Shown here piece after piece: positions 48,604 through 53,057 of a DNA stretch of 64,000 bases. Made by a program: the position numbers and the translations under genes. Within the stretch, counting starts at the first letter, position 1; the number at the start of each line of letters is the position of its first letter. This DNA is from Brachyspira hampsonii 30446 (lineage in GTDB: Bacteria > Spirochaetota > Brachyspiria > Brachyspirales > Brachyspiraceae), in assembly GCF_000316195.1 (NCBI RefSeq), contig NZ_JH994111.1, forward strand, positions 504,571-568,570, read 5' to 3'. A model generated the notes under the pieces. That model saw only the letters and a program-made list of their open reading frames with translations, did not search any database and had not been told where the DNA came from.

Positions 48604-49716
48604 ATGAAAAGCAAAATAGCTGACAGAGCATATACTCTCATAAAAAAAAAGAAATATAAAAAAGCCAAAAATTTACTTCTTAATAATAAAACTAAAATTT
48701 CTCATGATGCAGATGCCCTTGCCATGCTTTCATTTGCAGATATATTTTTAAAAGATTTTTACGGTGCTGAAGAACTATCAAGAAAGGCACTTAGAGAAGA
48801 TAATTTTTGTTTTAATGCTATGCTTGCCAAGGCTTATGTGAGTTTACATAATGGACACAGAGAAAATGCATTGAGAGAGTATTTCAGAATATTAGATTTA
48901 GATCCTGAAAATAGAATTGCAAAAGATAATATAGAGAGAATAAGATTTTTAACTAATAATGCAAAAGGTGATGAGATAAATCCAAGAGCATATTTACTCG
49001 GCAAAAAAAAGTTATCAATGTCAAGATTTTTGGTTCTCATACCTATAGCATTTATACTTACATTTTTATCATACATTACAATAGACAGAGTATATCCTAA
49101 AATAAGATATGTACTTCTTGATAAAGACCAAAAAGAGTTAAGAGAAAAACTAGAGAATGTTTACTTATTTGAGGGACTTGAAGACGGAAAGATTCCAGAT
49201 AGTGCCAAAAGTCCTACATACTCACCGCGTGAAGTGGCTGAGATGTTTGACAAGGCTAAAAACAATATGAGAAGTGCCTCTGTTAATGAAGCGGTTATGA
49301 TAATAAACGGTGCATTAAAAAGCGACATTAACGAATATTTAAAAGAGAGATTCAGAGTTTTAAAAGAGTTTGTAATAGCACCAGACTACAATATATTCAG
49401 AGAGAGTCCTAGTTATCTTACAGTAGCTGAGAATTATGACCTATACAATGGCGGATATGTGAAATGGAAAGCCGATGTAAACAGGGTGACTCAGACTAAT
49501 ATCGACGGCATACCAAAAAAGAAAGCAAGAATATTAATTTACGACACTAATGACAAAGACATTGCGGGTGTTGCTGATTTAATTGTGAATGTAACTGTAA
49601 CATTAGAAGCTAAAAATTATATAGAAGTTTACGGCAAGATTTTGGGTTATGATGCTAAACAAAAATCAATACAGCTTGAAGGTCAGATTATAAAGCATTT
49701 GCCTAAGAAGAAGTAA
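48604..49716 (+). CDS. TPR-containing membrane protein
   Basis: 370 residues. The N-terminal part has TPR-like helices (RAYTLIKKKKYKKAKNLL, ADIFLKDFYGAEELSRKALRED, AYVSLHNGHRENALREYFRILDLDPEN), one membrane helix at about 140-160 (FLVLIPIAFILTFLSYITI) and a C-terminal soluble domain likely outside the membrane. No family name. Its last nine codons and stop lie in a 33-bp sequence that is repeated at 50249-50281. TATAAT lies about 7 bases before the ATG, with no ribosome site, so it may be leaderless. Confidence 0.7.
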   Translation: MKSKIADRAYTLIKKKKYKKAKNLLLNNKTKISHDADALAMLSFADIFLKDFYGAEELSRKALREDNFCFNAMLAKAYVSLHNGHRENALREYFRILDLDPENRIAKDNIERIRFLTNNAKGDEINPRAYLLGKKKLSMSRFLVLIPIAFILTFLSYITIDRVYPKIRYVLLDKDQKELREKLENVYLFEGLEDGKIPDSAKSPTYSPREVAEMFDKAKNNMRSASVNEAVMIINGALKSDINEYLKERFRVLKEFVIAPDYNIFRESPSYLTVAENYDLYNGGYVKWKADVNRVTQTNIDGIPKKKARILIYDTNDKDIAGVADLIVNVTVTLEAKNYIEVYGKILGYDAKQKSIQLEGQIIKHLPKKK

Positions 49717-49718
49717 AA
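49686..49718 (+). repeat. 33-bp direct repeat, left copy
   Basis: It covers the end of the TPR gene (last codons encode HLPKKK and the stop). Identical to 50249-50281. Confidence 0.9.
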
Positions 49719-49731
49719 ATAATTTATATAA

Positions 49732-49759
49732 TTGCATAATCATCAAAAAACTATATAAT
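49732..49759 (+). promoter_or_regulatory. Promoter of hicBA module 1
   Basis: TTGCAT (49732-49737), 16-base spacer, TATAAT (49754-49759), about 28 bases before the hicB ATG. It lies inside the unit framed by the 33-bp repeats. Confidence 0.6.
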
Positions 49760-49786
49760 AAAAAATATTTGTTAATAGGATTTTAT

Positions 49787-50023
49787 ATGTCTAAATATGA
49801 TTTTAATATTATTATAGAACAAGATGAAGATGGAATGTATATAGCAACAGTACCTGCATTAAAAAGCTGTTATACTCAGGCAAAATCAATAGATGAATTA
49901 TATATAAGAATAAGAGAAGTTATAGAGCTTTGTCTTGAAGTCGAAGAAGAACATAACTATTTAAAAGATAATTACAAATATAATAAACTCATAAAAGCTG
50001 ACAGGGTAGAAGTTAGTATATGA
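49787..50023 (+). CDS. hicB: HicB-type antitoxin (module 1)
   Basis: 78 residues from the ATG at 49787, with AGGA in front. FNIIIEQDEDGMYIATVPALKSCYTQAKSIDELYIRIREVIELCLE is the HicB partial RNase H-like fold. No C-terminal DNA-binding domain is evident, so it resembles the short UPF0150 form. Its stop overlaps the hicA start (ATGA). It should neutralise the HicA toxin encoded next. Confidence 0.82.
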   Translation: MSKYDFNIIIEQDEDGMYIATVPALKSCYTQAKSIDELYIRIREVIELCLEVEEEHNYLKDNYKYNKLIKADRVEVSI

Positions 50024-50250
50024 GCAAATTATCTATATGTGATTCAAAGACTATGATTAAGATTTTGATGTTATTAGGATTCAAAGAATTAAGACAAAAA
50101 GGAAGCCATAAATTTTTTATCAATAATAAAGGACTTACTACAGTCATTCCCGTTCATAATGAAGATTTAACAAGAGGCTTAATAAGAAAAATTTTAAAAG
50201 ACATAAATATCACTATAGATGAATACGAAAAACTAAAAAAAGAGATTTGA
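50020..50250 (+). CDS. hicA: HicA-type mRNA interferase toxin (module 1)
   Basis: 76 residues. The double-stranded RNA-binding-like fold with catalytic His is visible in LLGFKELRQKGSHKFFINNKGLTTVIPVHNEDLTRGLIRKIL (GSH motif). It cleaves mRNA when free. Overlaps hicB by 4 bases. The stop codon overlaps the first base of the right-hand 33-bp repeat. Confidence 0.85.
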   Translation: MSKLSICDSKTMIKILMLLGFKELRQKGSHKFFINNKGLTTVIPVHNEDLTRGLIRKILKDINITIDEYEKLKKEI

Positions 50251-50281
50251 TTATAAAGCATTTGCCTAAGAAGAAGTAAAA
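50249..50281 (+). repeat. 33-bp direct repeat, right copy
   Basis: Identical to 49686-49718 but not part of a long gene here. With the left copy it frames hicBA and its promoter. Confidence 0.9.
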
Positions 50282-50329
50282 TATATTCATCACTATTGAT
50301 ATTATAGTTTAATAATATAAAATAATATT

Positions 50330-50632
50330 ATGATAAAATTTGAATGGGATAACAATAAAAATCTTATAAATATAAAGAAACATAAAATTTCATTTGAAGA
50401 TGCAATATATGTTTTTTCAGATAAAAATGCACTCATTATGAAAGATGAAGAACATTCTGATTATGAGGACAGATTTATTACAATGGGAAATATTAAAAGA
50501 AAGTTTATTATTGTTGTTGTTCATACAGACAGAACAAAAAACTCTAATGAAGAAGTTATAAGAATCATATCAGCTAGATATGCAACTAAGAATGAAATTA
50601 ATCAATACTATAATAGGGGGAATCATGAGTGA
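50330..50632 (+). CDS. brnT: BrnT-type ribonuclease toxin
   Basis: 100 residues. The family start FEWDNNKNLINIKKHKISFEDAIYVFSD matches the BrnT signature (F-x-W-D-x-x-K-x-x-x-N-x-x-K-H-x-I-x-F), and EEVIRIISARYATKNE is the conserved RxxSAR end. BrnT has a RelE-like fold and cuts RNA. The antitoxin gene starts 8 bases before its stop. No clear promoter distinct from the upstream hicBA. Confidence 0.88.
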   Translation: MIKFEWDNNKNLINIKKHKISFEDAIYVFSDKNALIMKDEEHSDYEDRFITMGNIKRKFIIVVVHTDRTKNSNEEVIRIISARYATKNEINQYYNRGNHE

Positions 50633-50840
50633 TATAAAAAAAGAATACAATTTTTCAAAAGCTCAGAGAATTACAGATTTTGAAAATGGTAAATTTTTTA
50701 TTAATAATGAAGATATAAAAACTCCAATTTATTTAGATAAAAAAGTATTATCTGAACTAGAAATTTTATCCAAGCAGTCAGAAATCTCAATATCAGAAAT
50801 AGCTAATGAAATACTTTCAAAATATTTCATTAATAAATAA
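50625..50840 (+). CDS. brnA: BrnA-type antitoxin
   Basis: 71 residues from the ATG at 50625, with GGGGGAA in front; the frame upstream lies inside brnT. IKTPIYLDKKVLSELEILSKQSEISISEIANEILSKYF is a ribbon-helix-helix DNA-binding domain. It pairs with BrnT and probably represses the brnTA promoter. Toxin-first order is typical of brnTA. Confidence 0.82.
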   Translation: MSDIKKEYNFSKAQRITDFENGKFFINNEDIKTPIYLDKKVLSELEILSKQSEISISEIANEILSKYFINK

Positions 50841-50849
50841 TTTGGATTA

Positions 50850-51083
50850 TTATAGTTTTTCTATCAAATTATTATATTCTTCTACATCAAGATTTATTTC
50901 ATTTAATATTTTTCTCATAAGAGGTCTTGATATTACCTTGCTTGAGTGAAAAGGAATAACAGTACATCTCCCATTTTCATGTTTATAAAAAGCATGACTT
51001 CCTTTTTGTCTTTGTTTAATAAATCCTAATAAAATCAGCAATTTTTCTATAGTTTTTGCATCTTTTAAAATCAGCTTACTCAT
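50850..51083 (-). CDS. hicA: HicA-type mRNA interferase toxin (module 2)
   Basis: 77 residues. LILLGFIKQRQKGSHAFYKHENGRCTVIPFHSSKVISRPLMRKIL keeps the GSH catalytic motif. It is on the opposite strand from module 1 and clearly diverged from it, so it is not a recent copy. Overlaps the upstream hicB by 4 bases. Convergent with brnA. Confidence 0.85.
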   Translation of the reverse strand: MSKLILKDAKTIEKLLILLGFIKQRQKGSHAFYKHENGRCTVIPFHSSKVISRPLMRKILNEINLDVEEYNNLIEKL

Positions 51084-51301
51084 ACTAGCTCTATTTCTTC
51101 TACCTTTACAAACTCTGGAATAGAATTCTTCTCTTCGCTATCCATCTCTTCAAGACATAAATCCAGAACCTCTTTTAATTTTATATGTAATTCTTCCAAA
51201 GTATCAGCCTGTGTATGAGCACCTACTATTGAAGGAATATATCCCACATAAACATTGGTTTCTTTGTCATATTCTATATATGCGAAAAATTTTTTATTCA
51301 T
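51080..51301 (-). CDS. hicB: HicB-type antitoxin (module 2)
   Basis: 73 residues from the ATG at 51301, with AGAGG in front. FFAYIEYDKETNVYVGYIPSIVGAHTQADTLEELHIKLKEVLDLCLEEM is the HicB fold, short form. Antitoxin for the overlapping hicA. It follows the large pentapeptide-like gene by 42 bases on the same strand. Confidence 0.82.
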   Translation of the reverse strand: MNKKFFAYIEYDKETNVYVGYIPSIVGAHTQADTLEELHIKLKEVLDLCLEEMDSEEKNSIPEFVKVEEIELV

Positions 51302-51343
51302 TAATAAACCTCTAAACATTTAATATTTTAATTATAACATAAA

Positions 51344-52999
51344 TTAAGCCCCTTTTGCAAATTTCCTAAACGCAGTAACAGTCTGAACCGAGCCGTACCA
51401 AAAAGCAATTTTACCTATAAAGTAGCTAATACCTGCAAAAAATTGTTTTATATAATTTTGTCCTGACAATATTTCTAATCCTTTATAATCTGTAGGATTC
51501 AAAAAAAAGAAGAAATTATATATAAAATTACTTGTTAAATCTTGTCCCATAAATAAATCATATGTTATTTTTAATGGTACTTTTCCAAACACTATACCTG
51601 ATATAATTAATATTAATAAGTATACATATATTTGAATTTCTTTTTTTATAAATTTTATAGATAATAATAAAATTATAAATATTGATAGTATAAAATGCCA
51701 AGTATTATTTATGATTGAAAAATAAAAGCCGAAAAAAGTTAAATTAGTCAATAATGTTATAATAAAAGCCCTAATCCAATTCTGTCCATTATCACTGTAC
51801 AAAGAACTTAATTCAATTGAAAGTATATCTCCTAAAGTTTTTAGATTTTTATCCTTTTTAAATTGTTCTTTTAATTCTTCTTTGTGTAGTTCTACTTCCT
51901 GAGATTGATACTGCAAAGCATCAATAACATTATTTCTAGCATAAGCCTGATGCTTAAGCAATGATACACTTTCACGATTAGCAAATTGATGTACTTTGAA
52001 ATTAATAGTATTAATTAAGCCTCTACTAATCAAAGAACCTTTAAAATCTGCTTCATTAACTTCTATATTTTGTAAATCAATTTTTCCATTTATTATTATA
52101 TTATAAAAAGATACCTTATTTATTTTATTATTTTTATTTTTTAATTTTTCCTTATTTAAGAAATAATTAAATAAACTGTCATAAAAACTGTTATCTATAA
52201 AATTATTATCTATTGATAAAATAGAATTATCATTAAATTTAACTTCATTAAATGTTAATTCATTTATTTTAGAACCACGAAAATACATAACTCTATTAAT
52301 AGCTGTATTTACAAATTTTAAATCTAATTCAAAATCAGATATATAAAAACAAATAATATTATTTAATTCCGATTCTATAAATTTTAAAATATATTTAAAT
52401 GTATTTCCAATGAGAAATGAAATTCCATTGAATTCTGATTTTTTAATTTCAACTCTACATTGAAATTCACAATTTGAAAATAATAATCCGCCATTAAATT
52501 TTATTTTATTAAATTCTAATGTAAAACATTTATAAAAATTACAATTTGAGAATACTAATATTTTATTAAAATTGGAATCATAAAATCCAACCTTTGATTT
52601 TATAATAGTATTGATAAAATATACTGAACCATTAAAATTAAAATTTTGGATGCATAGTCCATAAGAAACTATGATATTTTCAAAATTAATATTATAATTT
52701 AATTCATATTTATTTTCTTTTTTTGCACTAAAATATAGAATTGCATCTTCTAAATAAAAATGAATTTGAATTTTATTTTTAACTTTATTATTTATAGCTC
52801 CTATATTTAAAGTATAGTATTTTTCTTCTTCATCTGTAATGGTTATAATATTATTTTCATCTGTTTTTTTACCTTTGTTAAGTGCCTGTTGTAATAAATC
52901 ATATTTTAACCATTTAATAAGTTCTTCTTCTGAATTATATACGGTTGGCTGTTCTGTTATACCATATTTATTTATTTCATCAACATTTAAAATAGTCAT
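51344..52999 (-). CDS. Pentapeptide-like repeat protein with C-terminal membrane helices
   Basis: 551 residues from the ATG at 52999 (AAGG 7 bases upstream). About residues 100-330 carry pentapeptide-like repeats with Phe/Ile/Cys at regular five-residue spacing (NFNFNGSVYF, SNFNKILVFSNCNFYKCF), expected to form a right-handed beta helix. Four to five membrane helices follow near the C-terminus. Function unknown; such proteins appear in stress and defence settings. It lies next to the toxin-antitoxin island. Confidence 0.65.
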   Translation of the reverse strand: MTILNVDEINKYGITEQPTVYNSEEELIKWLKYDLLQQALNKGKKTDENNIITITDEEEKYYTLNIGAINNKVKNKIQIHFYLEDAILYFSAKKENKYELNYNINFENIIVSYGLCIQNFNFNGSVYFINTIIKSKVGFYDSNFNKILVFSNCNFYKCFTLEFNKIKFNGGLLFSNCEFQCRVEIKKSEFNGISFLIGNTFKYILKFIESELNNIICFYISDFELDLKFVNTAINRVMYFRGSKINELTFNEVKFNDNSILSIDNNFIDNSFYDSLFNYFLNKEKLKNKNNKINKVSFYNIIINGKIDLQNIEVNEADFKGSLISRGLINTINFKVHQFANRESVSLLKHQAYARNNVIDALQYQSQEVELHKEELKEQFKKDKNLKTLGDILSIELSSLYSDNGQNWIRAFIITLLTNLTFFGFYFSIINNTWHFILSIFIILLLSIKFIKKEIQIYVYLLILIISGIVFGKVPLKITYDLFMGQDLTSNFIYNFFFFLNPTDYKGLEILSGQNYIKQFFAGISYFIGKIAFWYGSVQTVTAFRKFAKGA

Positions 53000-53057
53000 A
53001 AAAAACCTTAAAAAATTATGATTCAATTATAACCCAAATAATTAAATCATCAACAAT

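Follow-up and report, generated by a model that had tools for sequence, protein, structure and literature searches.

A 33 bp direct repeat at a Brachyspira hampsonii hicBA locus as the probable scar of two stacked toxin–antitoxin alleles

The hicBA locus and its direct repeat

The window, a stretch of 64 000 nucleotides from the 3.04 Mb genome of Brachyspira hampsonii 30446 (G000; G001 onward denote other Brachyspira genomes), contains on its forward strand a gene for a protein of 370 amino acids (48604–49716). Orthologues of this gene, referred to here as the host gene, are present in 24 of the 26 Brachyspira genomes compared, a set with one genome per species in which fragmented assemblies end early. 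The first-pass annotation had labelled the product a TPR protein, a label that is less well supported: no Pfam family, TPR included, was matched at E 0.01.

The first-pass annotation described an exact recurrence, behind hicA, of the host gene's nine terminal codons and stop, and this was borne out. The 33 bp sequence GATTATAAAGCATTTGCCTAAGAAGAAGTAAAA, comprising the G of a CAG codon, nine codons, TAA and two further bases, is present at the end of the host gene (copy 1, 49686–49718) and again on the same strand at 50249–50281 (copy 2), as a perfect direct repeat with a start-to-start spacing of 563. Copy 2 is an orphan 3′ end of the host gene and, on the interpretation developed below, would form the upstream border of a displaced host gene–brnTA allele. 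A perfect repeat of such length is expected by chance approximately 3e-8 times in 64 kb. In the window's own genome it occurs at just these two sites, allowing up to three mismatches. Across the 26 Brachyspira genomes it was found only at the end of the 370 aa gene and as three duplicates (in G000, G005 and G007); the reversed-pattern control gave no matches.

Between the two copies, all on the forward strand, lie an intergenic leader (49719–49786) that also accompanies hicBA at other loci and, as originally annotated, both genes of a toxin–antitoxin pair: the antitoxin gene hicB1 (49787–50023; PF15919, E 1.6e-6) and the toxin gene hicA1 (50020–50250; PF07927, E 1.4e-15), which are adjacent and overlapping and make up a type II toxin–antitoxin pair of the HicBA kind. 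The promoter that had been ascribed to this unit was not supported by a consensus scan, which returned 7 sites versus 6.9 expected by chance. Beyond copy 2 lie the toxin gene brnT (50330–50632, forward; PF04365, E 8.9e-26) and a probable antitoxin gene brnA (50625–50840, forward), assigned by position and without a Pfam match. These are followed on the reverse strand by a second, convergent HicBA pair, with hicA2 at 50850–51083 (PF07927, E 4.4e-15) and hicB2 at 51080–51319 (probable start 51301; PF15919, E 9.7e-6, just short of the curated cut-off), and by a pentapeptide-repeat (pp) gene (51344–53026, reverse; PF13576, E 5.5e-9), the tails of whose paralogues separate modules elsewhere in the genus. 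The cargo in the window consists of type II toxin–antitoxin pairs, with HicA and BrnT being RNases by family.

Phage and plasmid origins were considered and rejected: the 801 bp region had no match in phages and only a short BrnT match in plasmids, and in viral contigs the first 25 bases of the repeat were absent and no relative of HicA1 was found.

Variable cargo behind the host gene in other Brachyspira

The position immediately 3′ of the host gene, referred to here as the slot, is hypervariable among the 24 genomes. In G006 the gene is followed by hicBA and then a pp gene, with the second repeat absent; G018 and G020 have brnTA directly behind a single copy of the gene end, with hicBA absent; and the window, G005 and G007 carry hicBA and brnTA in series with an identical junction. 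The slot in G021 holds hicBA2 together with an ImmA/PIN pair. Type III restriction genes of one kind occupy it in G004, G008, G011, G022, G024 and G025 and those of another kind in G002, G014 and G015; G009 has an N6-methylase/HsdR-type gene, and ordinary genes are present in others. These arrangements bear out two expectations of the first-pass annotation, namely relatives having an empty site with one repeat copy and no hicBA (G018 and G020) and other cargo at exactly the same point, here several restriction–modification (RM) systems. Modules also appear to decay in place at the slot: hicA1 is shortened to a 47 aa open reading frame in G007 (L051), and brnT appears broken in G005 (L043).

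Remnants of the leader and opening codons of hicB persist directly 3′ of the host gene in the pilosicoli clade, in G010 (E 1.6e-8) and G012 (E 6.4e-7), with a weaker trace in G016. It follows from the relics in G010 and G012 that hicBA was here before the pilosicoli/hyodysenteriae split, or that there was an ancient transfer between the two. Judged from these relics and from the repeat-free arrangement in G006, hicBA1 is old at the slot.

The two halves of the locus match two resident alleles

Positions 48604–50256 of the window align unbroken, end to end, with the host gene and hicBA1 of G006 (89%). Positions 50253–50841 align end to end with the gene end and brnTA of G018 (97.5%), and positions 50253–51374 align with the gene end, brnTA and hicBA2 of G020 (91%). 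The two halves meet at 50249–50256 (forward), where the sequence natively 3′ of hicA and the host-gene end have GATTATA(A) in common. All five repeat-free copies of hicBA1 finish in native flanks, for example ATTTGATTATATC, TTTAATTATAAG (G006) and TTTAATTATAAA (G021); the flank in G022 is TTTGATTATATC, and the native flanks match the host-gene end CAGATTATAAAGC over GATTATA(A), either in full or without the first base. This microhomology is 7–8 bp long, and by formula at least 7 bp is expected at a random joint with P ~0.0015. The junction is the same to the base in G000, G005 and G007, whose copies differ by 0–2 mismatches, and one event is therefore enough for all three. An exact second parent, with brnTA behind a gene end of the GATTAT type, was not found among the genomes compared; G018 and G020 read GGTAAT.

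As the original right end of a hicBA cassette, the native flank is simpler than the 33 bp copy, because otherwise other hicBA1 lineages, with different neighbours, must have lost the copy at the same base. With both halves of the window matching resident alleles end to end, stacking appears to describe the event better than cassette insertion. Our favoured explanation, which we consider probable, is that two alternative toxin–antitoxin alleles were stacked through approximately 7 bp of microhomology and then spread by homologous exchange, such that the repeat would be a scar and not an integrase footprint. The slot holds alternative addiction modules in different Brachyspira, and the window would combine the older host gene–hicBA1 allele with, behind it, the end of a second gene copy and its brnTA–hicBA2 cargo, the 33 bp repeat being the stub of the second allele's host gene. 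Incoming DNA may have paired by homology at one side, with an illegitimate joint formed at GATTATA on the opposite side; candidate routes are homology-facilitated illegitimate recombination and repair synthesis with a template switch. Homologous recombination, with the host gene as anchor, would then have carried the stacked block from one species to another. RecA acts poorly on short repeats, and stubs may persist for this reason. Because present-day relatives display the two parent alleles as well as the joined product, the route can be followed at single-base resolution, and this bears on the question of how small transposase-free toxin–antitoxin pairs spread between chromosomal sites.

A competing possibility is that hicBA alone inserted into a host gene–brnTA chromosome, duplicating a 33 bp target by an unknown process, which would make the event an insertion with long target duplication. 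G018 and G020 do provide an empty site with one copy, the cargo is likewise an addiction module without a transposase, and long, variable duplications are described for RM systems (PMC3874152 and PMC3031569). Gene-end duplications are also seen elsewhere in Brachyspira, of ~40–43 and 62–65 bp (pp genes), 42 bp (an 811 aa gene) and ~66 bp (a type IIG gene). However, hicBA1 already lies behind the gene without a duplicate in G006, and as relics in G010 and G012, and the joint shows microhomology to the native flank of hicA, which makes this explanation unlikely.

The first-pass annotation had proposed a circular or linear cassette inserted at the gene's 3′ end through homology or site-specific recombination. 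Its supporting observations, single-copy relatives, other cargo at the same point and the absence of a nearby integrase, have stood, while a site-specific cassette is not supported: the repeat represents one event in three genomes, neither the other cargo nor hicBA of G006 is accompanied by it, and the joint is a 7–8 bp microhomology. In its enzymatic form, with a tyrosine recombinase acting in trans on the gene end as attachment site, this model could draw on the rebuilding of the gene's 3′ end by the repeat, as happens with att sites in tRNA genes, and on the presence of integrase-family genes at other positions in every one of the 26 genomes. The vicinity of the slot, however, contains no PF00589 integrase, the nearest in the window's own genome being ~0.9 Mb away; for RM cargo at this point, the 3.5–6 kb searched contained no far-end copy; and tail lengths vary between host genes. 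No att-like fold was found, the repeat region folding no better than shuffled sequences (z 0.83), as was also the case for the pp tail (z 0.74). A common breakpoint motif, [AC]AG|AYT, guessed from the 370 aa and pp genes, fitted two further hosts and then failed on those found afterwards. We regard a recombinase of this kind as very unlikely.

Finally, the gene end and hicBA could have been duplicated locally in tandem, with the second hicBA later replaced by brnTA. Other Brachyspira genes do have tandem repeats of gene end plus hairpin behind them, but the interval from copy 2 to brnT retains no trace of a second hicBA, and the sequence 3′ of copy 2 is continuous with the host gene–brnTA allele of G018, leaving this history very unlikely.

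Movement of the brnTA block

Under the stacking of two alleles, the question arises of which one moved. hicBA1 is 91.9% identical between G000 and G006 and the whole stretch of gene plus hicBA1 is 89% identical, a similar divergence that is as expected of descent in place. The brnTA genes of G000 and G018 are 97.5% alike versus only 84% for their host genes, and the brnTA block has therefore travelled. Between G000 and G007 the first 1.1 kb of the slot, corresponding to the stacked block, is 91–99% alike. Host-gene differences between these two genomes number 75 of 510 sites in the 5′ part (15%) and 35 of 603 sites in the 3′ part (6%), compared with 53 and 73 differences, respectively, between G000 and G006 (Fisher P 8e-5). 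The same mosaic is found in G009 and G015, both without the module. From these patterns the slot was likely exchanged by homologous recombination within the host gene, although G009 and G015 share the mosaic, which may, given that sharing, be older than the join. A gene transfer agent, VSH-1, has been described for Brachyspira (PMC2897892) and would be a plausible carrier of slot DNA.

Gene-tail stubs at other loci

G021, G022 and G025 also have hicBA1 at a second locus, near trmD, and G020 has it at a different site. The left flank of the G025 copy contains a relic of the 370 aa gene end, aligned over 33 positions with one gap and one mismatch, a score reached by 0 of 2000 shuffles, and a weaker relic is present in G022 (P 0.005); those in G021 and G020 were not convincing. 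The brnTA module of G008 carries a relic of the same gene end (0 of 2000 shuffles). Outside the 370 aa gene-end relic lies a 40–43 bp stub of a pp gene, and pp stubs separate modules comprising hicBA3 (G007, G015, G016 and G022), hicBA1 (G021, G022 and G025) and brnTA (G008 and G012). The window represents the 'empty' form for hicBA3, the pp tail being followed directly by hicBA2, with G007 and G022 having a pp stub and hicBA3 in between. Next to trmD in G022 (C30; L137:4353–7814) the order is hicBA2, pp stub, hicBA3, pp stub with 370 aa gene-end relic, hicBA1 and full pp gene. The genus has further arrays in which host-gene stubs record the order of arrival.

Stubs of other genes were also observed. 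In G011 (C55; L149:908–5405) the last 42 bp of an 811 aa gene recur ~2.0 kb downstream, preceded by an ImmA/IrrE and DUF4411 (PIN) pair and a ~62 bp pp stub. In the window's own genome, sampled in stretches amounting to ~2 Mb, a 1082 aa type IIG restriction–methyltransferase gene (C4:622365–625613, within C4:622365–626405; L175:12365–16405) is followed ~0.7 kb downstream, past two small open reading frames (72 and 134 aa), by a decayed copy of its final ~66 bp. Between ribBA and ribH, identified by their sequence, three copies of the ribBA-like gene end surround a hairpin element and a gene for an Rpn-like nuclease (PF12784) in G006 (C1; L246:7880–9160). Tandem gene ends with AT-flanked hairpins are present at G006:C1 180984–181650 and 232140–232771, G008:C2 ~3114900–3115569 and G000:C4 39600–40728, as if a terminator-like hairpin and 17–50 bp of gene end amplify as a unit.

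Several apparent tail duplicates proved to be tandem paralogues, or tandem copies of gene end plus hairpin. A crude count gave 5 duplications of 3′ ends versus 3 of 5′ ends with a filter that drops short-spaced cases, and no bias is claimed. The clustering of pp stubs at one breakpoint was rejected as a sign of site specificity, being partly shared descent; G025 and G008, for instance, have the same joint of 370 aa relic and pp stub, and we do not claim one shared mechanism for all stubs.

That gene-tail relics of 30–70 bp adjoin other modules at other genes counts against a single accident, and a recurrent process may lie behind them. In its broadest form, a general process in Brachyspira would stack toxin–antitoxin and RM modules behind gene 3′ ends, with 30–70 bp stubs as separators and without an integrase, and Rpn-like nucleases could supply the breaks; if true, module arrays would form without any integrase, but we hold this generalization to be quite improbable. 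Matches to PF12784 (Rpn-like nuclease) number 20 in the window's own genome and 12–40 in most members of the related large-genome group; the pilosicoli group mostly has 1–4, though G011 has 10, and G019 has none. Overproduced Rpn proteins of E. coli, from the related family PF04754, raise RecA-independent recombination (PMC5350276), and a role for the PF12784 family as a source of breaks is only a suggestion. A dedicated mobility process is possible but unproven.

Comparison with known systems

Integrase-borne islands likewise leave an empty single-copy site in relatives (here G018, G020 and others). The slot has no linked integrase and no other cargo bounded by the same repeat, a second copy being confined to G000, G005 and G007 and absent, for RM cargo, from the 3.5–6 kb searched. 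The locus also differs from integron cassette arrays, with neither a folded repeat or pp tail nor a PF00589 gene near the slot. The H47 genomic island of E. coli (PMC5426353) is closer in having short direct repeats and being mobile without encoding a recombinase of its own, although excision of H47 was shown by PCR. A further likeness is to the displaced orphan toxin–immunity modules of Rhs loci (PMC3967940), in which an incoming module settles next to the host gene and its predecessor stays behind with a stub of that gene. The present host gene, however, does not encode a toxin, lacks a Pfam match and has its end outside the module; the cargo consists of a HicBA/BrnT pair, and the stub measures 31 bases instead of hundreds. 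Homology-facilitated illegitimate recombination (e.g. PMC3240628) shares the microhomology at one joint, and long homology may account for the other side; its operation here is deduced from comparison of the alleles.

In its anatomy the locus resembles the insertion with long target duplication known for RM genes (Nobusato 2000; Furuta 2010, as cited in PMC1643837, PMC3874152 and PMC3031569). In those accounts, as here, an addiction module without a linked recombinase lies between direct repeats of a sequence that the empty site has once, and the repeat length varies between events; the Brachyspira repeats measure 33, ~40–43, 42 and 62–66 bp across host genes, whereas PMC3874152 gives RM repeats on the order of 100 bp. 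The present case differs in that the cargo is a toxin–antitoxin pair, the duplicated target is a gene end, and two pre-existing alleles in relatives would explain the structure.
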